From a virus: a DNA stretch of 64,000 nucleotides. A program made the position numbers and the translations under genes. The notes beneath the pieces were generated by a model. It worked only from the letters and a program-made list of their open reading frames with translations. It had not been told where the DNA came from and ran no database searches. Below, piece after piece: positions 45,757 through 64,000 of the stretch; the stretch's first letter is position 1, and each line of letters starts with the position of its first letter. The stretch covers positions 17,288 to 81,287 of the IMG/VR virus record IMGVR_UViG_3300042090_002405, one strand, 5' to 3'.

Positions 45757-45941
45757 CGGCGTGCGGAGAGCACCTCGAGAAGATGCGCAGCTACAGCGGG
45801 GCGGAGTTTGATGATGCCGACCGAACCGGCTTCGGCATCGTCGTCGGTGAGCTCGACAGAACCGTCCTCGAAGAGGCGTATTTTCGGACAGCGCTTGTAG
45901 CCACAGCACATTGTCTCTCCGTGGATGACTTTCGGGTTCAT
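45753..45941 (-). CDS. Small Cys-containing protein
   Basis: 62 residues from the ATG at 45941 (AGAAGG upstream). MCCGYKRCPKIRLFEDGSVELTDDD, a small zinc-type or beta fold, then KLRPAVAAHLLEVLSARR. Coupled to the membrane protein downstream. Function unknown. Confidence 0.55.
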   Translation of the reverse strand: MNPKVIHGETMCCGYKRCPKIRLFEDGSVELTDDDAEAGSVGIIKLRPAVAAHLLEVLSARR

Positions 45942-45946
45942 CGCTT

Positions 45947-47361: not shown

Positions 47362-47612
47362 GGGAACCTCACGGGCCAGCGCATCGCCGGCGGAGTCGGA
47401 AGAGGGGGGCCGCTGAGCGCGCCGCCGTACGTGGGGCTCTTCTGCATGTTGGCGAGCGCTCCCATCAGAAACGCTCCGAGGACACCTCCGACGAGCGCAC
47501 CGCTGATAGGGCTCTTGCCTTGCCGGGCGGCGTACTCGACTCCAGCGTAGGCGCCGAGGCCGGCAATCGCTGCCGTGCTAACACCGCCCCCGATAGCGCG
47601 TAACAAACTCAT
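47358..47612 (-). CDS. Small membrane protein
   Basis: 84 residues, AGGAGACACC before the ATG. Two Gly/Ala-rich helices (GGGVSTAAIAGLGAYAG, SGALVGGVLGAFLMGALA) with a short loop, like glycine-zipper proteins that insert in lipid. Pro-rich C-terminus. Candidate virion-membrane or pore protein. Confidence 0.55.
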   Translation of the reverse strand: MSLLRAIGGGVSTAAIAGLGAYAGVEYAARQGKSPISGALVGGVLGAFLMGALANMQKSPTYGGALSGPPLPTPPAMRWPVRFP

Positions 47613-47620
47613 GGTGTCTC

Positions 47621-48586
47621 CTAGGGGATGGTCCTCGGGTTGATGCCGGCGAAGCCGACGAGATTGTCTTGAGGAAGGTTCTCGTCGAAGGCCATGGCCC
47701 CATAGATCGAGCCGTACTGGGCGAAGTCGCTATACGCGACGAGGAATTTGTCTTCTTCCGATAGCGCGGCGAACTGCTGAAGTTGAAGAGGTGTGGCGTT
47801 CAGAAACGAGGGGTTCGTCGTCGGATCGTTCTGCCTGACGCTGGCGAAAAAAACGACGTCGCACGGCACCGGAATAGGGATATCGAGCAACCGCTCGGAC
47901 TGATCTGTTCGCCCGCGATACCGGAGATCGTGGATGTTGCCGAGCGAAGCCGCCATCGGTACGCCCCAAGGCCTTCCCCCGTTGGGCGGCGTGTACGCGG
48001 TCGGCGCGAAGGGCGGACCCGCGAAGGTCTCGTAGAGGAGAGCCGGCGAAAGGGCGTCCTCGTAAATCAGCCCGTCGGTGTTTGCAGGATTGCGGGTGTC
48101 CCTGCGGGACCGATTGATCACCATAACGTGCCAGGAGATGTTGCCGCCGGGCGGGTGCCACAGCGGGTTTTTGATCTCCTTGCGAAACGTGACGGTACTC
48201 CCGACGGGCGGACCCGGAGGGGGCGGAGGAGGCAACTCACTGTTCGGCGTGAGGGGATCTGTCCCCGACGGGAGCCGCGCAACCATCTCGACGTACTGCC
48301 GAATTCCGACGAGCCGCACGCCGACCTCGGCGGATCCGAACGTCGCACGGGCGAGGATGAAGAGATACCGGCCCCCGAGCGCCGCCGTTGGGGTCGAAGG
48401 GACAACGAGCCCCGTGTACGCGTTCGTCTGGTACGGATCACTTCCGATGAAGCCAAATTCGGGGTTGGGCCCCGCCGTGATGAGCTCGTAACGACCACGC
48501 GCGAGCGGCTGACGGATCCCTTCGCCGACCCCGCCGGGCCAAGTGCGGAGTTCGAGGATCTTGTCGCTACGGGCGTGAGAGGACAT
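47621..48586 (-). CDS. Candidate virion shell protein
   Basis: 321 residues from the ATG at 48586 (TAATG overlap). Strand-rich throughout: RYELITAG, RYLFILARATFG, VTFRKEIKNP, ISWHVMVINRS, LLDIPIPVPCDVVFFASVRQ. A Pro loop (PPPPPPGPP) splits it into two roughly equal beta domains. Fold not recognised; it would suit a jelly-roll capsid or spike-base protein, and lies beside the other shell candidates. Confidence 0.5.
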   Translation of the reverse strand: MSSHARSDKILELRTWPGGVGEGIRQPLARGRYELITAGPNPEFGFIGSDPYQTNAYTGLVVPSTPTAALGGRYLFILARATFGSAEVGVRLVGIRQYVEMVARLPSGTDPLTPNSELPPPPPPGPPVGSTVTFRKEIKNPLWHPPGGNISWHVMVINRSRRDTRNPANTDGLIYEDALSPALLYETFAGPPFAPTAYTPPNGGRPWGVPMAASLGNIHDLRYRGRTDQSERLLDIPIPVPCDVVFFASVRQNDPTTNPSFLNATPLQLQQFAALSEEDKFLVAYSDFAQYGSIYGAMAFDENLPQDNLVGFAGINPRTIP

Positions 48587-49797
48587 TACGCCGGCTTCTT
48601 TCCGCGTGCGAGCAGGCGGCACAGGTGCGTGGTCGACACACCGACCTGCTCGGCGATCACGCGCAGACTCGATCCTGCGTCACGCATTGCGTGCGCGCGA
48701 TCGAGCACCTCTGACGATACGGCCGATTGTCGCGTGCGCCGAACAACACGATCGAGAAGGTTGAAGCGAAGAAGGTTCACGGGGCGCGCGGCGGATTCGC
48801 GGGCTTCCTTCGAACGTCGTAGGGCCTCTTTTATCTTCAGACCCTTGGCGCGACTGCGCTCGGCGAGTGCTTCGGGCGACAGCTTCGCCTTAGCTGCAAG
48901 CGCGCCCTCTTTTGTCCTGCGCACGCGTTCGACACGTGCTTCCGGCGTCATGGCGGCCCATCCCTTTTTCGTAGCCGCGCTGTATTCCTCTGACGATTTT
49001 GTCAGTACCTTTTTCCCACCTGTGCTGCCGTATAGCTCTCTGCGGATGGCCCATGTCTTCTGAGCCGCCTCTCTACGCTGCTCCGTCGTCTGACTCTCAC
49101 GCATACGTTGTCTGGTTTCAGGGCCCAATGAGTCCAGCCGACTTTTTCGGGCCTTCTCGACTCTCTCCGTACGCGCTTCGGGCGTCATGCTTGACCATTG
49201 TTTGCGCACACGTTCGCTCTTCTGCTCAGGCGACATGCCGGACAATTGGTGCTTAACCCTGTTGCTCTTCTCGACAGAAGAGAACTGCGACCAAAACGCT
49301 TTTTGGCCCGCGGAGAAGGATGCGCCGGCCTCCTCTGATTTTAGCCATTTCAGATGACGAGACAGACGCTCGGGCGACCACGCATGAATGTTCTTCCGGA
49401 AGTATGCGACACGTTCTTCGGGAGTCATCGCCTGAATACGCCTCTTCGACATATCGCCGATTAGACGTTTGCTTTCTGCGTGGTGATGCCCGTTGCCCCC
49501 GCCTCCCGAGGAGAGATTGTACCCGTGCGGTGTGCGCGTTCGTCTCTGTTCAATCCATCGAGCTTCGGCGATGTCCACTCCCTCTTGAGTGGTTACGACG
49601 TCGAGTAACTCATGGACAAAGGCCGCCGCACCGTATTTGCGAATCGCGGCGCTCAGAAGACGAGCGCCGCCCTTGTTACGCTTGGCGGCGTTGACGTGTT
49701 CTTTCCAGCGACCTTCGACCGTATGCACAGTCTGTCCGACGTAGCGTTTTCCATTCACCGTATTGGTGTGGATATAGATATGGAATCTGGGCCTCAT
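48586..49797 (-). CDS. GIY-YIG homing endonuclease with repeats and HTH
   Basis: 403 residues. The GIY-YIG core is at 5-95: HIYIHTNTVNGKRYVGQT, an Arg (VEGRWKEH), a Glu (EARWIEQ) and GYNLSSGG. From about 110 to 320 are repeats of TPEERVA, SPERL, SPEQKSERV type (NUMOD-like, DNA-binding), and the last 45 residues (VLDRAHAMRDAGSSLRVIAEQVGVSTTHLCRLL) form a resolvase-type helix-turn-helix. It sits between structural genes with overlaps on both sides, so it is a mobile intruder. Confidence 0.85.
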   Translation of the reverse strand: MRPRFHIYIHTNTVNGKRYVGQTVHTVEGRWKEHVNAAKRNKGGARLLSAAIRKYGAAAFVHELLDVVTTQEGVDIAEARWIEQRRTRTPHGYNLSSGGGGNGHHHAESKRLIGDMSKRRIQAMTPEERVAYFRKNIHAWSPERLSRHLKWLKSEEAGASFSAGQKAFWSQFSSVEKSNRVKHQLSGMSPEQKSERVRKQWSSMTPEARTERVEKARKSRLDSLGPETRQRMRESQTTEQRREAAQKTWAIRRELYGSTGGKKVLTKSSEEYSAATKKGWAAMTPEARVERVRRTKEGALAAKAKLSPEALAERSRAKGLKIKEALRRSKEARESAARPVNLLRFNLLDRVVRRTRQSAVSSEVLDRAHAMRDAGSSLRVIAEQVGVSTTHLCRLLARGKKPA

Positions 49798-50396
49798 TGC
49801 GCGATCATCAGAACTGAAAGATCTGGAGACTCAATCCCAAGTTTGCGCAAACGGCATCGACATTCCGCATCACTGAGATCGGAGACGCTCTTGTCCAACA
49901 ACTGTTGGCCCAAAAATGTGAGCGTTACATTGAACGGTACGCTCACCGGAGTTTGTGTGAGAATAGCGCTCACCTTAACATTAGATTGCTTCAATAGAGG
50001 CCAGCCATTCGGCCACGCCAATGCGATTACATCGAACAGATTACCCAAATCTGTAAAGTCATCGTTTATCGAATATTTAGGGCCGCCATATACATCCAAC
50101 TGAATCCCAACGCCAGTTTGACCCGATTGCTTCAACTGGTTGAAGTACAGCGATTGAAACGGCGACCCGGGAAACGAGTTCTGCTGAAACAGGTTGTACG
50201 ATACACGCTGAATCAGCGTGTCCTGCGTCAGGTTATTGTCGAACGATCCGACAATCGGTGGTGCGTTGACAACCGACGAGGAGAACTGGATCGGGACGTC
50301 GACCACGAACGGGACGATCGGAACGCCGACGACCAACCCGTAAGCTAGTTTAGGAGCCCACAAGGCGAGCTCACGAATATTTGGCTTCGGTTCCAT
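49794..50396 (-). CDS. Candidate shell or jelly-roll protein
   Basis: 200 residues. ELALWAPKLAYGLVVGVPIVPFVVDVPIQFSSSVVN then strands YNLFQQN, GIQLDVYGGPK, VKVSAILTQTPVSVPFNVTLTFLG; a single beta-barrel is a fair reading. It is the size of the smaller single-jelly-roll capsid proteins of membrane-containing phages, but I cannot confirm that from sequence. ATGA overlap with the homing endonuclease; a promoter or terminator may lie at 50397-50501. Confidence 0.5.
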   Translation of the reverse strand: MEPKPNIRELALWAPKLAYGLVVGVPIVPFVVDVPIQFSSSVVNAPPIVGSFDNNLTQDTLIQRVSYNLFQQNSFPGSPFQSLYFNQLKQSGQTGVGIQLDVYGGPKYSINDDFTDLGNLFDVIALAWPNGWPLLKQSNVKVSAILTQTPVSVPFNVTLTFLGQQLLDKSVSDLSDAECRCRLRKLGIESPDLSVLMIAQ

Positions 50397-50501
50397 CGTC
50401 AGGTTCTCCTCAAGCGCACTCTACCAAAATGAAAACGGGCGACGCAGCGTTTTCCGCCACGCCGCCCGGCTCAACTCCTGAACGTTCGGATCGGTTTTCG
50501 A

Positions 50502-51851
50502 TCAGCCGGCCGACTGAGGCGCCATGATCGTCGGCAGGTTGGTCTGGCAGTACGCCTTCCACCCGCCGGGCATCTCCCAGCCCTTCAGCTTGATCGCGAG
50601 CTTCAGCACACCGCCCTTGAAGACCTCGCGGCAGGTGTTGACGTCCTGCCGAACGAGACCGGGGACGGTATCGAGCGTTTGCTCGAGCATCTGGTTCTGA
50701 ATTCCGGCAGTGAGCGGGGACGTCGGCACCGAGTTGGAGCTAGAGGCCGAAATCCCCGTGTTGCACGTGAGGTTCACGTCCGCACTAATGTTCGTGCCGA
50801 GAGGCTCGTTTGTGATCGTGAGGGCCTCGAGCATGGATGCCTGGTGCACGGCGTCCTGCGCGACGAAGAGCATCCCGATGGGGATACCGCGCTCGAGGAA
50901 GCACGGGCTCTCCACGGGGCGATACATCTGCCCGCGGCACCCGTACCCCTGCCACCGGAGACCGCCCCAAGTGACCGGCGCGAGATCGTAGTCGCGGGTC
51001 GGGTGGAAGATGCCGACGTTCAGCACATTGGCAGGCGCCGTGGCGTTTCCGCTGTAGCCGACGCTGCCGACGCGGCGATGCGTGACCGGCAAGAAGATCG
51101 TGCCGGATCCCTTTGCGCGGTAGTTCGCGTTGACCTGCGCCACGTACTCGATCACGGGGACCTCGGACGTGCCGGACGCCATGGCGTCCGCGAACGAGCC
51201 GAAGTAGGAGACGTCCGCGGCGAGCTCGTTCAGCACGAGTTCCCTCTGCGACGTCTTCCATTGGAACTGGTAGGCGTTGATGAAGTTCCACCCCGCGCGC
51301 CACACTTCCGAGCCCCACGCGAGATCAGCCGGCGTGAGGACGGTCCCGGCAAACGTACCGACCGGGGGGATCCCCGTTCCGGTGTTGCCACCGAGGGCAC
51401 CGCCAATCTGATCATTGAGCGTGAAGACATCCGGCGAAGGGGGAGGCGTCGTCGTCGTGGCGGGTGCCGCGAAGGCGTTGCCGATCGTCGAGAAGCTCAT
51501 CGGCTCGCAGAACACGTGCACGCCTACGCCCTGCGTGAGGATGTCCGTCTGGAGAATGCCGTTGATCAGGAACGTGCTGTCGATGCTCTGGACGCCCGGG
51601 ACAGACGAAGAGCCCGACAACAGATTGACCGTGTCGCCGAAGGTCGCGGTTGCTTCCTCGATCGTGAGCGGCAAGGGGATCGTCCACACGACCTCCTCGA
51701 TCACGGGAATATTGCCGAAGGAGCAACGAAGGCACTTCTCCGCAGCGCCGAGAGTCCCGGGGGCTTCCCCGAGACCAAACGGCACGCGGCGCACCTTCTC
51801 GCGATCCTGACCCCACTTCGCGGACTTTTTACCGATAATGGAACGTGACAT
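50502..51851 (-). CDS. Candidate major capsid protein
   Basis: 449 residues; short basic N-terminus (GKKSAKWGQDREKVRRVPFG) then beta-rich body: EEVVWTIPLPLTIEEATATFGDTV, FLINGILQTDILT, VHVFCEPMSF, GTIFLPVTHRRVG, ADVNLTC, LKLAIKLKGW. No HK97-type signature (no long delta domain, no scaffold maturation site). Size, soluble character, and a long intergenic gap upstream with independent expression suit a major capsid protein, perhaps a double jelly-roll; this is inference. The gaps at 51852-51953 and 50397-50501 hold nothing I can support. Confidence 0.55.
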   Translation of the reverse strand: MSRSIIGKKSAKWGQDREKVRRVPFGLGEAPGTLGAAEKCLRCSFGNIPVIEEVVWTIPLPLTIEEATATFGDTVNLLSGSSSVPGVQSIDSTFLINGILQTDILTQGVGVHVFCEPMSFSTIGNAFAAPATTTTPPPSPDVFTLNDQIGGALGGNTGTGIPPVGTFAGTVLTPADLAWGSEVWRAGWNFINAYQFQWKTSQRELVLNELAADVSYFGSFADAMASGTSEVPVIEYVAQVNANYRAKGSGTIFLPVTHRRVGSVGYSGNATAPANVLNVGIFHPTRDYDLAPVTWGGLRWQGYGCRGQMYRPVESPCFLERGIPIGMLFVAQDAVHQASMLEALTITNEPLGTNISADVNLTCNTGISASSSNSVPTSPLTAGIQNQMLEQTLDTVPGLVRQDVNTCREVFKGGVLKLAIKLKGWEMPGGWKAYCQTNLPTIMAPQSAG

Positions 51852-51953
51852 GACGATCTCTCTTTTCGTGTGCCCGCCGTTTCACAGGGCCGACGCAGGC
51901 GTTCTTTGTTGAACTTCTTTCGTTCTTCCGCTTCCGCTCGTTCGTCTAGTCTC

Positions 51954-54059
51954 TCAAGAGAGGACGAGAGAGTCCTTTTCCTCGTCGCCGATGAAGCCGA
52001 GGAAGCTGTTGTTTTCGCCGACGCAACCGCAGCCTTCACCGCCCGCGGAGTTCATGGGGACGGGGCCAGGGCCTGGTGTTGCGGGAGGGCCGGGTGAATA
52101 GGTCGGCGGCCCGACTGGATTTGCCGGAGGCGGGGCGGTCGGGAGTGCTCCGTCGCCTGCTGCCGGCGGTGCAGCGGAAGCATCGGCCGGCGGGGGCTCC
52201 CCTCCACCGCCACCATCAGCCGGCGCATCGCTAACGCCACCCTGGATGGGGGGTGCGGGAGGCGCAACCGGAGAAGCGGGGGACTCGTAGAGGTACGGGT
52301 AGTGCCCATACGGATGGGCAAGACACCACGCGTGGAGCTGCGCATCCGTGTACGTCGGGTACAGACCCTTCGCGCGCGCCATGCAGTGGTGATGGTGGTG
52401 CTTGTGGTGTGGCGCCGTACCGGGCGCACTCGGGATGGCGTAAGGAGTGTTGAATCCAGCGCGCGACCAACGGTTGCTCAAGTTCGCGAAGTGCGCGACC
52501 CCGCCGGGCCTGTACATCGGATGGGAGAACTGAAACCGCGACGCTCCGGGAGGGGCAGGACGGCGGACATAACCGAGTCCGGCTTCATGACGGAGGGCCT
52601 GAGCAGCAGACGGGTAATTCTCGTTGTCGCTCACCCCGGCTTGTCGCCGAAAAACCTGAACCGCATCGGGGTAGGGCGAATCACCACCGAGGGCTAGAGG
52701 GCCGACATCGCCAATCGGAGCGGACGAAAGGGCCCCGAAAGACTGTCCACTCGCGGACGTTGTGGCGGAATCGAGATTCAGCTTCGCGGCCACTTCCGAG
52801 GGATACAGACGCGCGATGACGCTTCCCTGCAAAGCAGAGGTATCTTTCGGCGCGAGCATCGGGACAACCACGTTCGTCCAAAGCGTCGTGAACGCCTTCA
52901 CCCCCGCGCCAAGAGCCACGGCTTCAAGAGAAGCCTTCAGGTAATGGTTCTTGACATGCCCCGATGCAATCGCGGGAACGACGATCGCACCAGCCAGCGC
53001 GAGAGCGCGGTGCAGATGCGGGGGCGATGCGACGTTGAGGGCGTTGGCCATGGTACCAGCGCCGTCGGACGTGAACTTGTTCGTGGGCTTCTCGTCTCCC
53101 GCGGGGTTATAGGTTGCAAGATACCGATCGAGCGCATCGGACAACGAGTAACCAATGCCGATCGACACGGCCGAGATGGCGAGTCTTCCGACTGACTTGA
53201 CCGCTCCGCCGATGCCGGCGCGTGCGTAGTGACGGCGCGTCGCACGAACGCGACGAGCGGGCGTCCGAACAGCGTGCACCCGGCGACGACGCGACCGCAC
53301 CCGACGGCTCGGGGCCTGCACCAAGATCTCACGTACGCGCGTGCGCGTCCGCGTACGAACCTTGTTCGCGCTCGCCCTACGGTGTCGGCGACGTGCGCGG
53401 ACCACCGAAGTAGCCGCATGCACCCGACGACGCCGACGCGCCATCACCCGACGCGGAGCAGCAGCTCGAACCCGCGCACGAACCCGACGCCGCCGACGCG
53501 CTACCGGAGCGGCGGCGCGCACCCTGCGTCGTGCTCGCGCCCGAACAACCGTGGACGCACGCACCTTGCGCGCCGCACGGGCTTTCCGGTGACGCTTGCG
53601 CGCACGCACGACCGGCGTAGCTGCGTGCACTCGACGACGACGGGTGGAGCGGACCTTCTTCGAGCTGCGAGCGCGATGCTTGACGACCATGTGATCCTCT
53701 TCTCGTGCGATGACGGCCTGAATTCCTCGGCCAAACAGGATGGTCCGGAAGGTTTTTAGGCCCCTTGGAGAGAACTGCCGGAGGCGAATGTGCTGATCGG
53801 TCGTGTGCACCTTGCCGTGGTGGTAGCCGTGAGCTTTCGCCCAGGCCTTTGCGGCGGAAGGTGTCCACTGTTGTCGGTCGAACAGGAGCGACTGAACGTC
53901 CGCGCGCGGATGTGACGCGGGGGCCGCACGGGTGACACGACGGCGGAACGCGCCGGCAGCGACCCGACGGGACGCAGCACGACTACGGCGTGCAGAGACG
54001 CCACGCTCTTCTTGCGTTTCCTCTTCATACCGAGCGAGCCGGTCGTCATAGAGACCCAT
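51954..54059 (-). CDS. Protamine-like Arg-rich protein with membrane helices
   Basis: 701 residues. About 50-110 holds a compact module (LLFDRQQWTPSAAKAWAKAHGYHHGKVHTTDQHIRLRQF) of a type I recall from many phage proteins. From 130 to 290 Arg, Ala, Val and His make up nearly everything (RVRAAAPVARRRRRVRARV), like viral protamines that neutralise packaged DNA. Then hydrophobic parts (VGRLAISAVSIGIGYSL; LALAGAIVVPAIA; LEAVALGAGVKAF) suggest membrane association, and a His-rich and then Pro-rich C-terminus. Probably a core or membrane-DNA linker. Confidence 0.65.
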   Translation of the reverse strand: MGLYDDRLARYEEETQEERGVSARRSRAASRRVAAGAFRRRVTRAAPASHPRADVQSLLFDRQQWTPSAAKAWAKAHGYHHGKVHTTDQHIRLRQFSPRGLKTFRTILFGRGIQAVIAREEDHMVVKHRARSSKKVRSTRRRRVHAATPVVRARKRHRKARAARKVRASTVVRARARRRVRAAAPVARRRRRVRARVRAAAPRRVMARRRRRVHAATSVVRARRRHRRASANKVRTRTRTRVREILVQAPSRRVRSRRRRVHAVRTPARRVRATRRHYARAGIGGAVKSVGRLAISAVSIGIGYSLSDALDRYLATYNPAGDEKPTNKFTSDGAGTMANALNVASPPHLHRALALAGAIVVPAIASGHVKNHYLKASLEAVALGAGVKAFTTLWTNVVVPMLAPKDTSALQGSVIARLYPSEVAAKLNLDSATTSASGQSFGALSSAPIGDVGPLALGGDSPYPDAVQVFRRQAGVSDNENYPSAAQALRHEAGLGYVRRPAPPGASRFQFSHPMYRPGGVAHFANLSNRWSRAGFNTPYAIPSAPGTAPHHKHHHHHCMARAKGLYPTYTDAQLHAWCLAHPYGHYPYLYESPASPVAPPAPPIQGGVSDAPADGGGGGEPPPADASAAPPAAGDGALPTAPPPANPVGPPTYSPGPPATPGPGPVPMNSAGGEGCGCVGENNSFLGFIGDEEKDSLVLS

Positions 54060-54329
54060 GCCACGACTCGACTAAGGTTTTCGGGGCGTCTTTGTCGCGT
54101 CAATCCTTATGTTTTCGGGCGGTCCGTGCGCGGTGCACGCGGAGTGATTAGGGTACGCGCCTGGCGTGCGCCGTCAGCCGGTAAGCTGTCGGGGAAAGCC
54201 GCGGATCCAAACCGTATAGTTCGTATGGGTCGGCTGTTAATGCGCCGCACGCAGACGGGCGGCAGACGATCGTCGGAATCGTTCCGTGTAGTCCGCCTCT
54301 TTCGAGAGAATTGTATTCCGGTTGTATTA
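54060..54329. other. Promoter region of the late leftward operon
   Basis: 270 bases with no gene I can support. TTGACG on the minus strand at 54098-54103 lies about 40 bases upstream of the 54059 ATG, without a clear partner -10. An inverted TCCGG ... CCGGA with 11-base loop lies at about 54327-54347, near the transglutaminase-like gene's end. Confidence 0.35.
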
Positions 54330-54992
54330 CTACCGGATTCCGGGATACCGCAGACCCGGCGCGCTCATCGGGCTACCTGACACGCCGACATCCTTTTCGC
54401 TCATCCCGACGAAGTCACCGACGCCTTTTTCTTTGGCGTCTTTGCCGGGCTCCAGCCACCACTCGCGAAGATGCTGCGCGGTCTGACCCACGGGGTGATT
54501 TGTAGTGCCGTCCGTGCGCACCCAGTTGTCGAGCTCGTCCTGGAAGGCACAGAACACATGCGTGGGAACGTCGGCCGGTTCCTTGTGACTGCTCCCAATA
54601 ATCATCGCGGGGATCCCGATACTCATGTATGCCGCCGCAAGTAGTACGCTGTACTCGTCACAATCAATGCCCTTTATGCAAAGGCCTTTTTCTTTGTCGA
54701 GACACAGAATTTGATCGGGCGTTGCGATGAACTCCCCCATGAGAGGGTCGGCGACGTAGAAAGTTTGATTCCTCGCCGCATCCAAGATCGCTGTCACCTT
54801 TTGACGACGTCCTCCCTTCGCGGCGCCGGCCTTGTCGATCACCTGTGTCGTCCATGCACGAAGCCGGGGGGACATCCGCGCCTTCCATGCGCGATCGGCC
54901 GTCTCTTGAAGCGAGATCTTCGCGCCTCGTGCGCCGGCAGGATGAGACCTCGCATCAGTCTGGATCCCCTCGAGAGGTTTCTCTTGAATCAC
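54330..54992 (-). CDS. Transglutaminase-like cysteine protein
   Basis: 220 residues. The triad of the transglutaminase/protease fold is visible as C111 (GIDCDEYSVLLAAAYMSIGIPA), H145 (PTHVFCAF) and D161 (VRTDGTT). The first 70 residues are helical. The family may cleave or cross-link; in phage genomes such proteins are often virion components or peptidases. It directly precedes the virion operon and overlaps the LysM-like gene by ATGA. Confidence 0.7.
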   Translation of the reverse strand: MIQEKPLEGIQTDARSHPAGARGAKISLQETADRAWKARMSPRLRAWTTQVIDKAGAAKGGRRQKVTAILDAARNQTFYVADPLMGEFIATPDQILCLDKEKGLCIKGIDCDEYSVLLAAAYMSIGIPAMIIGSSHKEPADVPTHVFCAFQDELDNWVRTDGTTNHPVGQTAQHLREWWLEPGKDAKEKGVGDFVGMSEKDVGVSGSPMSAPGLRYPGIR

Positions 54993-55681
54993 GGATGATT
55001 CCCTTTCGTGGGCGTGGGGGGTTGCAGTGATCCGTACATCGCTTGAAGGGCAAGACGCGCGGAGTAGAGCGCGCTCTCAAGCGCATCTTGAATCTCGGCC
55101 CGCATCCCCGCAAAGTGCTCGGGCGATCGAAGTGCGAGATCAGCGGATAGTGCTTGCGCGCCCTTGATTGCCCAATCGGCGACATCTTTCGCGTACTGCG
55201 CATGCCACCCCGCATCGGCGTTCTCTGAAGAAAAGGCGGGGGACGCGGCCGCGATGATCTCCGCCGCCGTACGCGGAGCACACGACAAGAACTCCACGCC
55301 GTCCCTCTCGTCGAGGTCGCGCACTTGTTCGGCCGCGTCGTCGAGCGCTCGAAAGTGCGAGAGGATGACAGGTGCCATTTCCCCGAACGGGCTCGGCGTC
55401 ACGCCGTCCGCGTAAGGCAAGCTCGCGAAGTACGCCGGGGGGTAGAGGTTGTCGTCAGCGAACGCCGGATCGAACCATTTCTCAGGGAGGAAGAGCTCTT
55501 CGCCGACGCGGAGGTCGCGAAAGGTCACGAAGCCGTTGCGGTGCGCGACAGTATCCTTGTGGCCGTTGGCCCGGGTCAGATCGAACGAGGCGCACTTGGG
55601 GCAGCCGGCGTGCTCCTCCATCGCCGCGATCGATGCCGGAGTGTCCCCATCTCGAACTACGTACGTCCTCCGCATCCGCAT
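54989..55681 (-). CDS. LysM-like N-terminal domain plus helical protein
   Basis: 230 residues. TYVVRDGDTPASIAA ... FRDLRVGEELFLPEKW is a LysM-type start and end with an inserted CPKC pair (HAGCPKCASFD). The rest is helical (ALDDAAEQVRDLDERDG, LRSPEHFAGMRAEIQDALESA). LysM binds peptidoglycan or serves as an attachment hub in virions. Probably a virion protein near the wall-contact side. Confidence 0.55.
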   Translation of the reverse strand: MRMRRTYVVRDGDTPASIAAMEEHAGCPKCASFDLTRANGHKDTVAHRNGFVTFRDLRVGEELFLPEKWFDPAFADDNLYPPAYFASLPYADGVTPSPFGEMAPVILSHFRALDDAAEQVRDLDERDGVEFLSCAPRTAAEIIAAASPAFSSENADAGWHAQYAKDVADWAIKGAQALSADLALRSPEHFAGMRAEIQDALESALYSARLALQAMYGSLQPPTPTKGNHP

Positions 55682-55716
55682 TCTTCGGGAAGACTACGCG
55701 CACGCATGGCCCCCGT

Positions 55717-55809
55717 CTACGTCGTGGGCGCCATCGAGGCCGGCGTCGCCGATGTTGAAGTTGAAGGATGCTCGGTGTAATGGCGCGGGTGATTGATCGG
55801 ATCGCTCAT
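55717..55809 (-). pseudogene. DUF3310 remnant
   Basis: The 30-residue frame reads SDPINHPRHYTEHPS, the hallmark start of DUF3310 phage proteins (INHPxHY, HPS), and then falls apart into Thr/Ser/Pro noise. A different frame right after gives FNFNIGDAG, close to the next conserved DUF3310 segment (FNLGNA). So a deletion plus frame change appears to have destroyed the gene. Between here and 56031 I see only an unsupported short frame with CARC. Confidence 0.5.
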
Positions 55810-56031
55810 CTTTTTCCCCCGTCTACGCCGTACCGAAAAGCTGCACGATCGACCCTGTCTCACCGAGCGGCTGTTTGCACCGCGCGCACCGCGTTCCGTC
55901 TGGCGGGGCTGAGTACCCGAGCATCTCGTCCCCTGCTGCAAACAGGCGTGGTGCACGCGGAGACGACGTGCGCGCTTGGCGTCCTTTTGACCGACGCGGA
56001 ATCTGTTTTCGGAGGAGCCCACGACGGACGA

Positions 56032-56229
56032 TTAGAGTGGCGCTACTTCGCGCGTTGGCGAGTACACCACCGGCCGTCCGTCCCCGTGCGCAAGCCGGAT
56101 CCCCTCCCCATCGATCGCCATCCTCACCAAAGGGGTCTTCAGGAGCTTGTCGAGCGTCTTCGCTACTGCTGCTGCGTCTCGATCGTCCCGTGCCTCGATA
56201 ATGACATGCATCAAAATCTTGTACTTCAC
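56032..56229 (-). CDS. Small protein of unknown function
   Basis: 65 residues from a GTG in a GTGA overlap with the Pro-rich gene. KYKILMHVIIEARDDRDAAAVAKTLDKLLKTPLVRMAIDGEGIRLAHGDGRPVV: alpha/beta with a good hydrophobic core. Unknown function. Confidence 0.55.
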   Translation of the reverse strand: MKYKILMHVIIEARDDRDAAAVAKTLDKLLKTPLVRMAIDGEGIRLAHGDGRPVVYSPTREVAPL

Positions 56230-57848
56230 CGGGGGCCCCCGGGCATCGGCATCGGCGGAGCGCCCCATGTGCGCGGGCTTTGCGGCGCGATCGGCTCCGG
56301 CATGTGTTCCGGCGCGGGCGGGGGTGGCAAAGAGTCTACAGGCACCGCCACAAATCCCGGCGGTGGCGTGTAGCCGGGGGTCACCTCGACGTAGCCCGGC
56401 GGGAGCGTTCGCTGCGGCCCGCGCCGCGCCTCGACGCGGTTCTGCAGCGCTTCTCGCTGCTCCGAAAACCATTTGAGGACGTTGCCCATGTTGGCCGTCA
56501 CGGTTTCGAACGCGCGCACAGACCCGTTCTCGCGGTCCATGACGATGGGCCACCCGTTACCAACGTCCACGACCTTAACGGGATTGCTGTCGTCCCCGTC
56601 GTCGCCGACGTTGTAGCGGCGTCGTGCGCCATCGTCCTCAGGCGGGGGGCGAAAGCGGTCCGCGATCCCCATCGCTGTATCGATCACCGAGGCGGCCTCG
56701 CGGAACTCCTCGACGGCTGACTTCTGCCGCATGGGGGGCCCTGGGGGCGGACCTCCGGACGGGCCGCCGTATGCGGCGGTGCGGTACGCACCGGGACCTG
56801 GCGGTGGCGGAGCAGCGGGAGCGCCGAGGGCCTGAAAAAGACGATCCGCCGGAACGAAACCGAACCCCGGAACGAAAAACATTCCGGGCGGCGCTTGGAT
56901 CGGCGGCATGCCCGGCAATGCTCCGGGCGGTCCCGCGTGCGGCGCGGGGGGCGGCGATGGAGCGGCGGGTTGCTGCATCCGCTGCATCGTTTGCATCATC
57001 CACGACATCATCGCTATCGGATCGGCGGACGATGGGGGCGGGGCTGGCGCAGCCGAAGGAGCAACCGGCTGCTGCTGTAGCTGCTGCATCTGACGATACA
57101 TGTCGAACGTCTGCTGCATCATCGCGATCGGATCCACAGATGGCGGGGCCGAGGAGGATGGTGCGGGTGACGGCGGTGGAGCACCTGGAGCCCCCCCGCG
57201 TGCCGCGTTTTGCATGTCGAGGAACATCCCGAACATGCGCTGCATGAGGGTCACGGGATCGCCCATTCCTCCGTTGGGCGGCGGTTGCATCGGCTGCTGC
57301 ATCATCGTTGGTCCCGTCGTCGGTTGTCCTTGGTCGCGCGTGTCCGTCAGGACGATCCGCCCCTTGCCGCGCTTCTGCTTATCGCTCGAGTCTACGAATT
57401 CGACCTCGTATCCGGCCTCTTCGTAGCGCCCGTGGTGCGTCATCAGCACGGTGTAGAGCTCTGCGCCCGATTTCGGACGGCTGCGGATCACCCACTGCAC
57501 CGGCGAGCCCGTCAAACGCTTGACCTTGATGTCGATCGTGTTGGCCGGCCAGAACTTCAGAAGCCCATCGTACTTCTCGAGAAGGTCTTCGATGTTGAAG
57601 GGCGCTCTCGCCTGGCCGGACCGCTTCTTGTTGACGAGATCTTCCATACGGCGGTTGTCGCGCACGCTCTCCGCGTCGACGGCGCCTAATTCTTTGATCT
57701 TGGACTCGTCGGCGACGAGAGCGCCTGGCTCTTCGCCTTCTGCGGACTCCTCGGGCACCGCGCCGATCTCGGCGACGATATCTGCCTCGTCTTGCTGCGC
57801 GGGGGTGTTCGAGGGCGGAGCTGCGCCGCCGCTGTTTCGACGTCCCAT
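56226..57848 (-). CDS. Pro/Met-rich scaffold-like protein
   Basis: 540 residues. N-terminal acidic region, then a globular domain at about 80-180 (FNIEDLLEKYDGLLKFWPANTIDIKVKRLTGSPVQWVIR, TVLMTHHGRYEEAGYEVEFVD). The rest is Pro, Met, Gln and Ala low complexity (MMQQTFDMYRQMQQLQQQP), with a short second globular part (DVGNGWPIVMDRENGSVRAFETVTANMGNVLKWF) and Pro-rich end. Disordered, perhaps an internal scaffold or hub. Ribosome site AGGAAAGAAG upstream. Confidence 0.55.
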   Translation of the reverse strand: MGRRNSGGAAPPSNTPAQQDEADIVAEIGAVPEESAEGEEPGALVADESKIKELGAVDAESVRDNRRMEDLVNKKRSGQARAPFNIEDLLEKYDGLLKFWPANTIDIKVKRLTGSPVQWVIRSRPKSGAELYTVLMTHHGRYEEAGYEVEFVDSSDKQKRGKGRIVLTDTRDQGQPTTGPTMMQQPMQPPPNGGMGDPVTLMQRMFGMFLDMQNAARGGAPGAPPPSPAPSSSAPPSVDPIAMMQQTFDMYRQMQQLQQQPVAPSAAPAPPPSSADPIAMMSWMMQTMQRMQQPAAPSPPPAPHAGPPGALPGMPPIQAPPGMFFVPGFGFVPADRLFQALGAPAAPPPPGPGAYRTAAYGGPSGGPPPGPPMRQKSAVEEFREAASVIDTAMGIADRFRPPPEDDGARRRYNVGDDGDDSNPVKVVDVGNGWPIVMDRENGSVRAFETVTANMGNVLKWFSEQREALQNRVEARRGPQRTLPPGYVEVTPGYTPPPGFVAVPVDSLPPPPAPEHMPEPIAPQSPRTWGAPPMPMPGGPR

Positions 57849-57879
57849 CTTCTTTCCTCGTTTCCTTCCTTCTGCCTGA

Positions 57880-58344
57880 TCAGGATGGGGCTACGGTGCC
57901 GTTCGTCGCCGGAGCGGCAGCGACGGACGGAGCATCGGAGGGAGTCTCGGGCTCCTCCGGCTCTCCGTCCTCTTCGCCCTTCGTCTCGTCGATCTCGAGC
58001 TCGTCTGCGAAAATGTCGGCGGGCATCGCCTCCTCTACGTAGCGGACAGCCCTCATCGGGATGATGCTGCGGATCCCCATGGAGAAGTCGGGCGCGAGGC
58101 AGTACACCCGGATCTCCTCGGCATCGCGGTCCAAAAACATGCGGAGGACCTTGTGGCCCGAGATGAACGGATGCGTGTGGCCCACCACCCACATGACGGG
58201 CTCGTCTTTCTTGCCCGGTTCCGACGGGAAAACCGCATCTGACACGGCGCGCATGATCATCGGGTAACCGGGCTCGATGAGATCGGGCGGCTCGGGCTGG
58301 GGAATTGCTGCCGTCGCCGGTGCGTGGGGTTGCTGCATGGCCAT
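57880..58344 (-). CDS. Conserved-looking protein with acidic tail
   Basis: 154 residues from the ATG at 58344 (CAGGAG site). Core YPMIMRAVSDAVFP, EPVMWVVGHTHPFISGHKVLRMFLDRDAEEIRVYCLAPDFSMGIRSIIPMRAVRYVEE is beta-rich; the last 40 residues are acidic and disordered. Upstream of the Pro-rich gene. Function unknown. Confidence 0.55.
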   Translation of the reverse strand: MAMQQPHAPATAAIPQPEPPDLIEPGYPMIMRAVSDAVFPSEPGKKDEPVMWVVGHTHPFISGHKVLRMFLDRDAEEIRVYCLAPDFSMGIRSIIPMRAVRYVEEAMPADIFADELEIDETKGEEDGEPEEPETPSDAPSVAAAPATNGTVAPS

Positions 58345-58387
58345 GGATACGAACTCCTGAAAGTTGGTTTGGCGGACGGGCTCTCCG

Positions 58388-59023
58388 TCAGTCGAGTAGT
58401 CCCTCTTCCGCGAAAGAGAAAAACGATCGTTTATCTTCACTTCCCCCGACGATCAAATGATCAAGCAAGATCACATTGACCGCCTCGAACGCTTTTAGAA
58501 AGGCGTCCGTCGTTTCCTTGTCGGCTTCACTTGGTTCGGCTTCGACACCTGAAGGATGCACGTGCATGAGGATCACAGCGTGCGCACCGTCGATGAGTGC
58601 TGCTTGTAGCGTAGGGACCATCGGGGCCATGGTTGCCGTCGCCTCCCCTCGGCCTGTTTCCGCCACAGACTTCATTCGCAGATGTAGATCGAGTGTGATG
58701 AGTCCGAAGACCTCATTTACCTCGTCGCCGATCGCATCCTCGATGAGCTCGAAGGCCTTCTCTGGAGTGTTCAGCGGTCCAATCTTGTCAGCGAGCGCGT
58801 TGCACGCCGCGAATCGCGCCGGGTCCTTATGTACAACGAGAAACGGCCGGCACTTCGAGTCGGGGCCCGCCGAAAGCACCACTGGCTCAACGTCGTCCGG
58901 CCGGTGCGGCGCGACCGTTTCGGCCACCCGGCGCGCCTGAGCGGGCTCATGACACCCGCACTCTGCACCAATGCGACGTCGCTTCTCGCCGACCGCGACG
59001 AGGTTGTAGGACTTCCGTTTCAT
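58388..59023 (-). CDS. RadC-type JAMM (MPN) domain protein
   Basis: 211 residues. Cys/His-rich start, then the RadC-like fold: EVFGLITLDLHLRMKSVAETGRGEATA, and ILMHVHPSGVEAEPSEAD with the metal site HxH ... S-x2-D. One residue more than usual separates the second His from the Ser. RadC proteins are JAMM-fold metalloproteins often carried by mobile elements, with roles suspected in DNA repair or antirestriction. Function here unproved. Overlaps the next gene by ATGA. Confidence 0.8.
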   Translation of the reverse strand: MKRKSYNLVAVGEKRRRIGAECGCHEPAQARRVAETVAPHRPDDVEPVVLSAGPDSKCRPFLVVHKDPARFAACNALADKIGPLNTPEKAFELIEDAIGDEVNEVFGLITLDLHLRMKSVAETGRGEATATMAPMVPTLQAALIDGAHAVILMHVHPSGVEAEPSEADKETTDAFLKAFEAVNVILLDHLIVGGSEDKRSFFSFAEEGLLD

Positions 59024-59442
59024 GCGATAGAGCCAGTCGGAGCGGCGTGGTCGCGATGGACGTGGTTGATGATCTGCTGCGAGGGTTGCTGGGCTTCCCC
59101 AAGGGACACCGCCGCATCGGCGCTGCCGAACGCGACGAAGTTGCCCGCGCTCTCGGTCTGCACGACGAACTCCTCCAAGGGCACGTCTGTAACGATGAGC
59201 CGCACGTCCTTGTCATCCAGGATCGGGCGAAAGCGCACGCCGCCATCGAGCACAATATTTTGGATCTGCACAGGCAACACCACGGACCCCACGACGATGT
59301 CGGCGCTCACATCTTTGCCGACCGCGTCGACGAGGACAAACTTCGTCGTGTTCCGCGTCTCGTCGGGCCGGACGATGGAGGAGAGGACACGCTTGATCAC
59401 GATGCGGCCCAAGATCTGGGAACGACGGGGGATGAATTTCAC
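59020..59442 (-). CDS. Beta-rich protein
   Basis: 140 residues from the GTG at 59442 in an overlap with the preceding gene. RSQILGRIVIKRVLSSIVRPDETRNTTKFVLVDAVGKDVSADIVVGSVVLPVQIQNIVLDGGVRFRP is strand-rich; the end has AGNFVAFGSADAAVSLGEA. Probably a small oligomeric or virion protein; function unknown. Confidence 0.55.
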   Translation of the reverse strand: MKFIPRRSQILGRIVIKRVLSSIVRPDETRNTTKFVLVDAVGKDVSADIVVGSVVLPVQIQNIVLDGGVRFRPILDDKDVRLIVTDVPLEEFVVQTESAGNFVAFGSADAAVSLGEAQQPSQQIINHVHRDHAAPTGSIA

Positions 59443-60062
59443 GGAGCTCTCCTTGTCTTCGGCTTCTGCCCGGCCTTCTTCTTGGTCTTCTTCGTGGTCT
59501 TCTGCTTCTTGGTCTTCTTTTTCTTGGGCTCTTCGAAGTCCGCCATGAACGCCCTGAGCGCCCTCGTCTTTGACGCCGTCGCTTCGGTGAGCAGCGACAC
59601 GGGGCCGGCTTCGAGTGTGGCCACGAGGGACAATGCTGTCGAGGTCGTGGCCCCCCCTTGCGAGGCCTTCCGAAGCTCCTCGAGCTCCGCTTGACACGCC
59701 ATGAAATCGGCGATGACTTCCGAAAAATGCTCCCGCGACGGGGCGTAGTACGGGCCCTCCGCCAGCCGCTTAGCATCGAGAGGTGCAAACTGCCGCGCCG
59801 CCGTAAGGATCACAAGAGCACTCATGCGCATCTCCCGATCGCGGCAAGCTGACACGCACGCTACTTTTTCGTCCGCCTTGCCGGGGCAGGTCTCCACGTG
59901 CCGGCATTTCTCGAGAATCGAAGCGGCCTCTTGCACAGCGATCTGCCAAGCGACCTTCGACCGCCAAAGCTGGCGGCGCACGCCGTCCCAGTGCCGTACG
60001 AAGACAGATACCTTCTCGTCGCCGGGCGTGGCCAGCCCCATCATTCTGTCGTTGTTCATCAT
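59439..60062 (-). CDS. Helical protein with Lys-rich tail
   Basis: 207 residues. Helical domain (VFVRHWDGVRRQLWRSKVAWQIAVQEAASILEKC, AAEGPYYAPSREHFSEVIADFMACQAELEELRK) with several Cys (C54, C60, C70, C74 roughly). The last 35 residues are almost all Lys, Thr, Arg (KKKKTKKQKTTKKTKKK), a DNA-binding-type tail. Together with the Arg-rich protein it may coat DNA; inference. Confidence 0.55.
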   Translation of the reverse strand: MMNNDRMMGLATPGDEKVSVFVRHWDGVRRQLWRSKVAWQIAVQEAASILEKCRHVETCPGKADEKVACVSACRDREMRMSALVILTAARQFAPLDAKRLAEGPYYAPSREHFSEVIADFMACQAELEELRKASQGGATTSTALSLVATLEAGPVSLLTEATASKTRALRAFMADFEEPKKKKTKKQKTTKKTKKKAGQKPKTRRAP

Positions 60063-60071
60063 CCCCGTTCC

Positions 60072-60311
60072 TCAGATCGTCTTTCCGTTGGGCTCCTTGA
60101 TCCTTAGGTAGCCCTCGCTCGTCTGGTGCCGATCCGCTGCCTGAAGCAAGATCGACCGCATCCATACGCTGATCTTCACGCCGCATTGCTGCGCGCGCTG
60201 ATCTACGTTCCGATATTGCTCCGGCGTCATCTTCAGCGTGACGACCTTAGTTTTCGCGGAGACAGCGGTGTGTGCCATCAGGAGGGAGGCCAATCGGATG
60301 GCCGTCGGCAT
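60072..60311 (-). CDS. Ribbon-helix-helix-like small protein
   Basis: 79 residues. AKTKVVTLKMTPEQYRNVDQRAQQCGVKISVWMRSILLQAADRHQ has RHH order (strand, helix, turn, helix). Start uncertain: the ATG at 60278 would fit the fold better, but no ribosome site precedes it. Divergent from the 60387 gene, so it may regulate the space between. Confidence 0.55.
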   Translation of the reverse strand: MPTAIRLASLLMAHTAVSAKTKVVTLKMTPEQYRNVDQRAQQCGVKISVWMRSILLQAADRHQTSEGYLRIKEPNGKTI

Positions 60312-60386: not shown

Positions 60387-60605
60387 GTGACTGGGCACAT
60401 TCGTCGAGGAGATCGCTTCACGGTGGGCTTCGGGCAAGCCATGATCACGGCCCCGCTTCTAGCTACGGGTGCCGCCGCTGGTGAACCGTCGCCGTGGGCT
60501 ATGGCGCTGGCGACGACGGCGTTCGGCGTGGCGACTGGATGGGTGCTCGACGAGGTGTCGCACCGGATGCGCGGCGGCAAAGGTCGAAGAAGCCGAGGAC
60601 GATGA
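60387..60605 (+). CDS. Small membrane protein
   Basis: 72 residues from the GTG at 60387. Basic start (TGHIRRGDR), then hydrophobic ATGAAAGEPSPWAMALATTAFGVATGWVLDEVS, one or two spans, and a Lys/Arg/Gly tail. Leaderless start likely. First of three membrane proteins in a row, coupled by ATGA. Confidence 0.5.
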   Translation: MTGHIRRGDRFTVGFGQAMITAPLLATGAAAGEPSPWAMALATTAFGVATGWVLDEVSHRMRGGKGRRSRGR

Positions 60606-61438: not shown

Positions 61439-61873
61439 ATGAATACGGTCACGTCCATCGCTCGACTCCTGGTGCGCCCATCTGCCCGAACGATGGGGCA
61501 CTCGGTCGCCGCATTGTCCGTAAAGCAGACACTGCCATCTCTCATCACGACTATAGGGCACGCCTGTACGGTGGCCTGGCTAACGACGGGGGCTTACTGG
61601 CTAGCGTTCGCCGGCCTCGCATGTGACATGCTCGATGGGGCGGTTGCGCGACACCTTGACGTCGTATCCGAGTTCGGTGCGCTCTATGACTGGACGGTAG
61701 ACGTCACGATGGCGGCGATAATTTGCCTCGTTGCGCTGCACGCACCATGGCTCTTGATCGCTTTGGTTCCGATCGCTGTCTGGTGTAAGCGACGAGGTCT
61801 TCGTTTTTCGGGGCGGGCCGCGTTGACGTTGCTTGCGGTAGGTCTAGGGTGGAGGGGCGGGGTGCCGTGGTAA
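61439..61873 (+). CDS. CDP-alcohol phosphatidyltransferase
   Basis: 144 residues. Complete class I motif: D63-x2-D66-G67-x2-A70-R71-x8-G80-x3-D84-x3-D88 (DMLDGAVAR, then G-ALYD-WTVD). These enzymes join a CDP-alcohol, usually CDP-diacylglycerol, to an acceptor such as inositol, serine or glycerol phosphate to make phospholipid head groups, in the membrane. Hydrophobic spans flank the motif. Short for the family (often 170-200). Sits between virion-type membrane proteins and a muralytic enzyme. Product unknown. Confidence 0.85.
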   Translation: MNTVTSIARLLVRPSARTMGHSVAALSVKQTLPSLITTIGHACTVAWLTTGAYWLAFAGLACDMLDGAVARHLDVVSEFGALYDWTVDVTMAAIICLVALHAPWLLIALVPIAVWCKRRGLRFSGRAALTLLAVGLGWRGGVPW

Positions 61874-62739
61874 TCCGTCGAGGCGACAAGATCGTACGAG
61901 GGTTCGCCCTCGGCGCCGACGACTCCGTCGACGCTCTCGTCGCGAGCAAGCTGTCGGAGCTCGGTTACGGTTCCGTGTCCGACTTTCAGAAGGCAAAGGG
62001 ACTAACTGTCGACGGCGTTGCCGGGCACGACACCCTGACAGCGATGGGACTCGGGTACCTCTTCGATCTCTCTTCGAGGGGGATGCTTTCTTCGGGGCAA
62101 ACCCAGCTCGAAACGAAAAACACACCGCTTACCCCCGAGCAAGCTGCGCAGGCACTCAGCGAGGGCTACCAGTCCATCACCGGCTCTGTACCGTCCCCGG
62201 ACGTTCTGTCGTTGCTACTCGCGCAGTCCGGGCACGAAACAGCCAACTGGCAAAAGCTCCCCAACTACGCCTTCGGGGGCGTAAAAGCGACATCCGGAAC
62301 GCCCTACGTCCAGGCCTTCGTTACCCCCGAGGGGGATCCGCCGAAACATTACGTGCTGGCTTTCGCGGCGTACCCCACGGCGGCGGCGGGGGCAAAGGCG
62401 TACATCCGAACACTGAAGAACCGATCGGCATGGTGGGACGGGCTTCAGAGCGGCGTCCCGCAGACCTTCGTCGACGCTTTGGTGAGCATCCCCGGAGCGC
62501 TCTACTTTACCGGCAATGCCGGGGACTACCTCGCGAGCATGCAAACCCGCGTGCAGCAATTCGCCGATCTCGCAAAAGAGTACGCAAGGCCACTCGCGCG
62601 GCCCGCTCAGGCGGCCGCCGCGGTCGTTGCGCCGTACATCGCGCCGATCGTGCAAAACCCAAAACGTGCACTTGCGGTCGCGGCGGGGGTCGTGGCGGTC
62701 GCTACCGCGGCGGCGTGGATCGCGACTCGTCGCCGGTAG
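61867..62739 (+). CDS. Membrane-anchored peptidoglycan hydrolase
   Basis: 290 residues from the GTG at 61867, seven bases inside the previous gene (GGAGGGG upstream). N-terminal PG_binding_1 (SVSDFQKAKGLTVDGVAGHDTLTAM), then LLLAQSGHETANWQKLPNYAFGGVKA and YVLAFAAYPTAAAGAKAYIRTLKN, the pattern of glucosaminidase or lytic transglycosylase-like muramidases. One transmembrane helix near the end (LAVAAGVVAVATAAAWIA). The third wall-binding protein with a C-terminal anchor. Probably opens the wall at entry, from the virion. Confidence 0.75.
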   Translation: MVIRRGDKIVRGFALGADDSVDALVASKLSELGYGSVSDFQKAKGLTVDGVAGHDTLTAMGLGYLFDLSSRGMLSSGQTQLETKNTPLTPEQAAQALSEGYQSITGSVPSPDVLSLLLAQSGHETANWQKLPNYAFGGVKATSGTPYVQAFVTPEGDPPKHYVLAFAAYPTAAAGAKAYIRTLKNRSAWWDGLQSGVPQTFVDALVSIPGALYFTGNAGDYLASMQTRVQQFADLAKEYARPLARPAQAAAAVVAPYIAPIVQNPKRALAVAAGVVAVATAAAWIATRRR

Positions 62740-62758: not shown

Positions 62759-63160
62759 CTAGTTCTCGGCGGCCATCTCCGCCGGATGCAAAAACGCCCC
62801 GATCGCGCAGCACCCGACCGCATCAAGCTCCGGCATCTCTACGACGAGCCAGAAGGCGATCCCGTCCCGCGGAAGCTGCATCTTCTTGTGCGCAGACTCT
62901 CGTGCGAGAGGATGGATCTTTTTTTGTGTGTCAGTCCAGCGGCGGAACGCTTGCTCGATATATGCCGATCGCGAGAATGCCTGGAAGCCGTCCGCATCCT
63001 TCGTGTCGCGCGCGACGACGACGAGCACGATGTCAGGGGTACCAAAGTGCTGGCGCGCTTCGCGGTACGCCTTGAGCAAATCATAAGGCGGGAGCGCTTC
63101 GGCGATCTCCTTCATCTGGGGGGAGGTGCCGGGGGCGAGAATGAGTTCCGTCTTGGTCAC
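62759..63160 (-). CDS. Conserved-looking protein of unknown function
   Basis: 133 residues from a GTG at 63160 in a GTGA overlap. TELILAPGTSPQMKEIAEALPPYDLLKAYREARQHFGTPDIVLVVVARDTKDADGFQAF, then HKKMQLPRDGIAFWLVVEMPELDAVGCCAIGAF: an alpha/beta fold. No family recognised. Convergent with the muralytic gene. Confidence 0.55.
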   Translation of the reverse strand: MTKTELILAPGTSPQMKEIAEALPPYDLLKAYREARQHFGTPDIVLVVVARDTKDADGFQAFSRSAYIEQAFRRWTDTQKKIHPLARESAHKKMQLPRDGIAFWLVVEMPELDAVGCCAIGAFLHPAEMAAEN

Positions 63161-63384
63161 GGGATGGAGATACCATACTTCCGGTCCGATCGTCGATCGG
63201 CTGGTGTCGGACCGCCTCGTTGCCTTGATCCCACAGCGATCCGGCGCCTCTTTCGACGCGGAGCGGCGGCGAGCTGGCCGTGGGCCTTCCGGAGAAGCTG
63301 GCGCAAGATGTCTGAAGCCGATAGGCCCTCCATCTCGGCAAGCTCCTCCAACCATCCGAAAGGAGTAACCCAAGTGACGATCAC
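63157..63384 (-). CDS. Small regulator-like protein with basic tail
   Basis: 75 residues. TPFGWLEELAEMEGLSASDILRQLLRKAHGQ is RHH-like; the rest is Arg-rich (PRRKRRRIAVGSRQRGG). GTG start at 63384, overlapping by 11 bases the start of the divergent gene. Possibly regulates itself. Confidence 0.45.
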   Translation of the reverse strand: MIVTWVTPFGWLEELAEMEGLSASDILRQLLRKAHGQLAAAPRRKRRRIAVGSRQRGGPTPADRRSDRKYGISIP

Positions 63385-64000
63385 GCCAGCACTTCCGCTC
63401 GACGTTGGGGCCCATCCGAAGCCCTCCGTCGATCAACTCAAGCGCATCGGTCTCGACCCGAAGGCGATCCCCTCATGCGCGATGGAGCGCGCCTATCTCG
63501 CATGGGCGCTCGAGCAGCACAAGGCCGACCCGGCGGGATGGCCACTCGAGCGCGTGGTTGCCGAGTTCGGGGACAACGTGCCGTGCGCGTCGGACGTTCT
63601 GCGTTCTGCGGTCATCCGATTCAACGATCGCGTGGGGCTCCATCCGGCCGGGATCGAGCGACGAGCTCGCGCCTTCACCGATGAGGTTCTGAGCGCGATC
63701 GCAACGTCAGGACGGGACCGTGCGATCGAGCGCCAGCGCGGATACGCGCTTGCCGATTGGGGCCTCCGGTTTGCGACGCCACTCTTCCTCGAGCTTGGGA
63801 CGACGCTCGTCCCGTGGGCTCCCAAGCTGCGAGCTCTCGCGCCCATCGTGGACGATTCGAGCCTTTTCGAAGCGCGGAAAATGACATCCATCCTCTGGGA
63901 TGAGGCGGTTCGCGCACGCGGGGCCATGTGGGACAGATTGCGAGCGGCGGCGATGGCGGAGGCGGGGGCGGTAGCGGTGGCGGCGGCGGCGATGGCGGCG
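63374..64000 (+). CDS. Ala-rich protein running off the right edge
   Basis: Hand-translated; open to the edge, at least 209 residues. AGGAG precedes the GTG by eight bases. LKRIGLDPKAIPSCAMERAYLAWALEQHKADPAGWPLERVVAEFGDNVPCASDVL, then helical and Ala/Arg-rich (RDRAIERQRGYALADWGLRFATPLFLELGTTLVPW). C-terminal part AMAEAGAVAVAAAAMAA is low complexity. Function unknown. Confidence 0.5.
   Translation, partial: MTITPALPLDVGAHPKPSVDQLKRIGLDPKAIPSCAMERAYLAWALEQHKADPAGWPLERVVAEFGDNVPCASDVLRSAVIRFNDRVGLHPAGIERRARAFTDEVLSAIATSGRDRAIERQRGYALADWGLRFATPLFLELGTTLVPWAPKLRALAPIVDDSSLFEARKMTSILWDEAVRARGAMWDRLRAAAMAEAGAVAVAAAAMAA

Follow-up and report, generated by a model that had tools for sequence, protein, structure and literature searches.

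The 64,000-nucleotide stretch analysed here (the window) comprises bases 17,288-81,287 of an 81,287-bp virus contig in IMG/VR. An ORF near its right-hand end, with an ATG start and a 144-aa product, encodes a homologue of the CDP-alcohol phosphotransferases (CDP-APs), which we will hereafter refer to as the mini CDP-AP (Table 1). All eight motif residues of this family (D63, D66, G67, A70, R71, G80, D84 and D88) are present with the canonical spacing D-x2-D-G-x2-A-R-x8-G-x3-D-x3-D (residues 63-88), and translation of the ORF showed that an earlier sequence-only reading had given their positions, identities and spacing correctly.

Table 1. Coordinates of the window features discussed in the text.
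Feature	Position	Strand	Basis
Mini CDP-alcohol phosphotransferase (CDP-AP) homologue (operon gene 4)	61439..61873	+	Pfam PF01066, AlphaFold2, Foldseek
Operon gene 1, 72-aa membrane protein, GTG start	60387..60605	+	tblastn, same place in many relatives
Operon gene 2, N-terminal 'RLGNRRVAGFDVGVG' signature, C-terminal transmembrane segment	60602..61051	+	sequence, TM scan, signature test
Operon gene 3, N-terminal 'GGRRVMGFGIG' signature, C-terminal transmembrane segment	61048..61428	+	sequence, signature test
Operon gene 5, tail-anchored muralytic-type protein	61867..62739	+	Pfam, PHROGs, sequence
Conserved gene bounding the cassette, one side	60072..60311	-	tblastn in at least 15 relatives
Conserved gene bounding the cassette, other side	62759..63436	-	tblastn in most fetched relatives
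Probable major capsid protein, 449 aa, very conserved	50502..51851	-	relatives in IMG/VR
Conserved structural-module protein, 200 aa	49794..50396	-	27/27 relatives, up to 75% identity
Conserved structural-module protein, 333 aa	47621..48622	-	27/27 relatives, about 60% identity

A Pfam search matched residues 32-110 of the mini CDP-AP to PF01066 with 41.8 bits (E=1.8e-10; curated cut-off 22 bits), and a blind search of the whole record with the same profile recovered it at 40.9 bits (E=1.4e-11). These scores bear out the family assignment made in the sequence-only reading and put the match far beyond chance. Because the mini CDP-AP protein ends early, the alignment is limited to positions 3-91 of the 152 in the profile. 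None of the NCBIfam equivalog cut-offs for PssA, PgsA or PIP synthase was reached (best score 35 bits against a cut-off of 180; others 25-30 against 107-350). The weak scores came from the archaetidylinositol-phosphate synthase, PgsA, PIP synthase and PssA models and, as every model fell far under its cut-off, we rejected a substrate assignment from NCBIfam. Peptide patterns drawn from the mini CDP-AP alone found no close relatives in viral contigs.

Relative to the cellular CDP-APs that we sampled, the protein lacks about 50 aa at its C-terminal end: 82 aa follow the motif, compared to at least 110, and mostly 120-150, in intact homologues from cells. It has neither the sixth helix nor the 'R-P-E-R' segment found in the cellular enzymes, and therefore acceptor binding may be impaired. 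An AlphaFold2 model (pLDDT 78; 62 sequences in the alignment) places helices at residues 5-11, 23-50, 53-72, 78-101 and 103-118, with a weak one at 125-135. Their order is canonical (amphipathic helix, TM1, TM2-motif-TM3, TM4 and a short TM5), and the model contains four helices of full length plus a fifth that is short and of low confidence, in place of the canonical six transmembrane helices. Given this shortfall and the short tail, we classify the protein as a homologous shortened variant and a non-canonical member of the family. The best Foldseek matches to the model were CDP-APs (probability 0.99-1.0, all with E>0.1, the alignment behind the model itself containing CDP-APs), led in the PDB by phosphatidylserine synthase (probability 1.0) and PIP synthase, and the best superpositions had an rmsd of 1.1-1.3 A over about 59 residues. 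The model thus suggests that the TM1-TM3 core of the CDP-AP fold is present. In the Foldseek viral library, CDP-APs of giant viruses ranked first, and no annotated phage CDP-AP was among the matches.

Scanning viral contigs with the CDP-AP motif as a pattern returned 104 stretches. Many of these were ordinary PgsA proteins of 182-195 aa that carry an FGAFLDPVADK signature and are probably encoded by the host beside a prophage; some others matched by chance. Three further minis were recovered (L063 in G028, 202.5 kb; L105 in G029, 41.7 kb; L125 in G030, 59.3 kb), each 29-31% identical to the mini CDP-AP of the window. All four proteins end 78-85 aa beyond the first motif residue. They have in common an S-x-R triplet close to the C-terminus and a Trp after the third catalytic Asp (W85 in the window), a residue that is not among the common ones at this position in 58 other aligned CDP-APs. 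As the eight motif residues were the search condition and S-x-R and W85 lay outside the search pattern, only the Trp, the S-x-R triplet and the common end count as independent evidence of constraint. In a tree the four minis fell on one side of one branch (0/500 shuffles scored as low), with a modest branch support of 79 on 105 columns. A profile built from the four matched the solved phosphatidylserine synthase structures 7b1k and 7pow (E about 1e-10). Compared with the PF01066 family (PssA TIGR00473, PgsA TIGR00560, PIP synthase NF045883, archaetidylinositol phosphate synthase NF040950), the mini CDP-AP is alike in its motif, predicted TM1-TM3 core and over-cut-off Pfam score and differs in its length, its missing sixth helix and its scores under every equivalog cut-off; it differs further in having Trp in place of Ser/Pro/Thr after the third catalytic Asp and in having lost the Arg/Lys that follows the last Asp. 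G030, a distant relative, also encodes a homologue of the window's probable capsid protein (E=5.7e-120), so at least two members of this virus group carry the mini form. No minis were found among the 80 best genome matches to the CDP-AP. One Myxococcota match in that search (L247), seemingly full-length, was rejected as an ordinary long PssA-like protein.

These data bear on whether the gene is an inactive or decaying CDP-AP, that is, a gene acquired from a host, missing its end and in the course of being lost. The missing C-terminal residues and the patchy presence across relatives (see below) would fit such a history, but we consider it improbable, as the reading frame is open, coupled to its neighbour and undisrupted, and the three other minis end alike at about 30% identity with an intact motif. 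From this common end point we conclude that the shortened protein represents a stable type.

The mini CDP-AP gene is the fourth of five + strand genes that follow one another without real gaps, the junctions being, in order, ATGA, ATGA, a 10-base gap and GTGGTAA. At the last junction the stop codon of the mini CDP-AP overlaps the GTG start (61867) of the muralytic-type gene, and the mini CDP-AP is translationally coupled to this gene for a peptidoglycan-binding, tail-anchored enzyme, of which a longer ORF version begins at 61849. In the product of gene 5, a PG_binding_1 domain (E=3.6e-6) is combined with a transmembrane segment at the C-terminus; there was also a weak glucosaminidase match under the cut-off (E=0.04) and a weak endolysin match (PHROGs). 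According to a TM scan, the products of genes 2, 3 and 5 terminate with a hydrophobic segment followed by basic residues, in agreement with the earlier description of the neighbours as tail-anchored proteins and a membrane-bound muralytic enzyme.

An N-terminal signature resembling '(L)GGRPVxGFGxG' is common to otherwise unrelated virion-type proteins, including the probable capsid protein and the products of operon genes 2, 3 and 5 in the window and proteins of the cassettes in L035, L040, L041, L043 and L048. It was present in 14/174 N-termini compared to 2/335 internal stretches, for a pattern picked after looking at the sequences, and may be a targeting or maturation-cleavage peptide. That the operon neighbours carry this signature in common with the probable capsid protein points to an operon of virion proteins.

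About 20 related virus records keep the two genes that bound this cassette, and the gene order 60387, 60072, 59439, 58388 (RadC), 57880, 56226, 62759 is likewise kept in about 20 (tblastn). We used this context to ask whether a host pgsA or pssA had been caught in the viral contig, either by contamination or at the edge of a prophage. Such host pgsA genes adjoining prophages probably account for most CDP-AP motifs in IMG/VR contigs, but here the operon is flanked by conserved viral genes, the protein is shorter than the cellular counterparts sampled, and the 80 best genome matches include no mini form. We rejected contamination on the conserved flanks and the short form, and regard a host origin of this kind as extremely improbable. 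The sequence-only reading had taken the gene to be viral; it is part of a virus record, where it sits among the membrane-anchored virion- and lysis-type genes of one operon and not in flanking host DNA, and is almost certainly a virus-encoded CDP-AP homologue.

In relatives, the slot between the homologues of the bounding genes is filled by tail-anchored proteins, by holin-like ORFs, by a lysozyme of family GH25 (PF01183, E=3e-15) or by a Fic protein (PF02661, E=2.4e-18). Fic-domain genes occupy the same cassette at L040 6978-7583(-), L048 and L050. A PF01066 search of close relatives gave a match in 0/27 records, and a search with profile A2 found the CDP-AP missing from 30/31. We therefore conclude that the gene is optional cargo in a variable membrane and lysis cassette and is dispensable for the virus group. 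This near-absence from relatives, like the shortened form, was missed in the sequence-only reading.

The cassette also raises the possibility that the protein is a lysis factor, a membrane protein of CDP-AP fold that aids the endolysin, either through a lipid change that triggers lysis or as a holin-like protein with an active site. Its coupling to the muralytic gene, the holin-like ORFs and GH25 lysozyme in the same cassette of relatives, the lack of another obvious holin in the window cassette, and the holin-like and peptidase-like ORFs that adjoin the G029 mini are all consistent with this explanation. However, the catalytic motif is complete, which a pore would not need, the predicted fold is that of the enzyme core, and no muralytic gene was recognised beside the minis of G028 and G030. 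On balance we consider a lysis factor unlikely.

The window belongs to an undescribed group of virus records (G001-G039), contigs of roughly 60-125 kb with a capsid-like module in common (window 44993-60311). In IMG/VR, the 449-aa protein of this module is matched by 27 relatives with 64-78% identity and by more distant ones with 41-46%, giving 32 related virus contigs; we infer that it is the probable capsid protein. It had no match in 50,697 phage records or 72,556 plasmids, nor, in a pattern scan for the host, in 84,980 genomes. Its predicted structure had a pLDDT of 33 (23 close homologues in the alignment), too low for a fold to be read from it, and its profile matched no solved structure. 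The family phrog_2, which we take to be the terminase large subunit (a marker of tailed phages, Caudoviricetes), was not found in the record of the window, and its single match among 16 records (in G038) was a helicase. Membrane-containing icosahedral viruses of the Varidnaviria type are marked by a jelly-roll capsid protein together with a HerA/FtsK-type packaging ATPase. A HerA-like ATPase (PF01935) was present in 5/16 records (G008, G011, G013, G015 and G020; L280-L284), where it is a candidate packaging ATPase; no homologue was found in the record of the window. Other genes of this region include a homing endonuclease between conserved structural genes (48586-49797(-); phrog_314, E=7e-26), present in only 3/27 relatives; a 701-aa protein, conserved in 24 relatives, whose long N-terminal region is rich in Arg and which resembles a DNA-condensing core protein (51954-54059(-)); and a conserved structural-module protein with a weak, sub-cut-off transglutaminase/cysteine-protease match (54330-54992(-); E=0.0023).

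Taken as a whole, we give slightly more credence than doubt to a virus-specific, C-terminally shortened CDP-AP made from an operon of tail-anchored membrane and lysis proteins. Catalytic activity is predicted and reasonably probable; most likely, the protein is an active but divergent enzyme using host CDP-diacylglycerol. In the mechanism we propose, the mini CDP-AP would insert in the host inner membrane, bind host CDP-diacylglycerol with two Mg2+ ions held by D63/D66/D84/D88, and transfer the phosphatidyl group to a small alcohol, which would alter the head-group make-up of the membrane that serves virus assembly or has to be broken at lysis. The genomic place of the gene favours a virion-assembly lipid or a lysis-linked change in the host membrane and does not separate the two. 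A product used in the lipid of the virion or assembly membrane, one of the roles suggested in the sequence-only reading, is a tentative proposal, and a putative role in lysis or general host remodelling is equally tentative. We think it rather unlikely, on present evidence, that the virus represents an undescribed non-tailed, membrane-containing lineage in which a five-helix mini CDP-AP sets the head-group composition of its own virion membrane during assembly. No second lipid gene was recognised among the partly annotated genes of the record.

The sequence-only reading had called phospholipid head-group synthesis by a virus rare. This holds for phages, but is qualified by the host pgsA genes near prophages and by two known sets of viral genes. 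Giant viruses (Bodo saltans virus, Catovirus, Terrestrivirus, Yasminevirus) likewise encode CDP-APs, the top structural matches in the viral library; these are proteins of 168-364 aa from viruses of protists, whereas the window holds a mini form in a non-giant virus. A 2026 gut-phage study lists CDP-DAG-serine O-phosphatidyltransferase (PssA, K17103) as an auxiliary gene (PMC13205691), so phage CDP-APs are already known as a kind. The excerpt of that study on which we draw has in common with our data a CDP-AP in phage contigs, there metagenomic and annotated by orthology group, and describes no mini form, operon or virion context. No dedicated paper on a phage-encoded PgsA or CDP-AP was found in the literature searched and, as far as found there, the mini form and its operon context are undescribed. 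According to a review (PMC6356626), bacteriophages lack lipid-biosynthesis machinery and take their lipids from the host membrane. The membrane-containing phages PRD1, PM2 and FLiP resemble the virus of the window in their gene set of many small membrane proteins and a virion-associated muramidase, but have no lipid-synthesis machinery of their own (PMC6356626), whereas this virus encodes a CDP-AP homologue. If the enzyme is shown to work, a virus-borne CDP-AP would be unusual for bacterial viruses and would touch on how membrane-containing phages obtain a lipid mix unlike that of the host, for which a dedicated viral head-group synthase in a virion-membrane operon would be a direct mechanism. 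If functional without a sixth helix, it would also show the minimum that a CDP-AP needs for such chemistry.

Two further observations were made at other loci. In the 202.5-kb record, a PLD-like gene (L155 11313-12260(+); PF13091, E=6.8e-41) lies about 3 kb from the mini and is possibly a second lipid enzyme. A family A DNA polymerase-like gene (L002 14289-17252(-)) contains, by eye, an apparent intein with an HNH-like insert.
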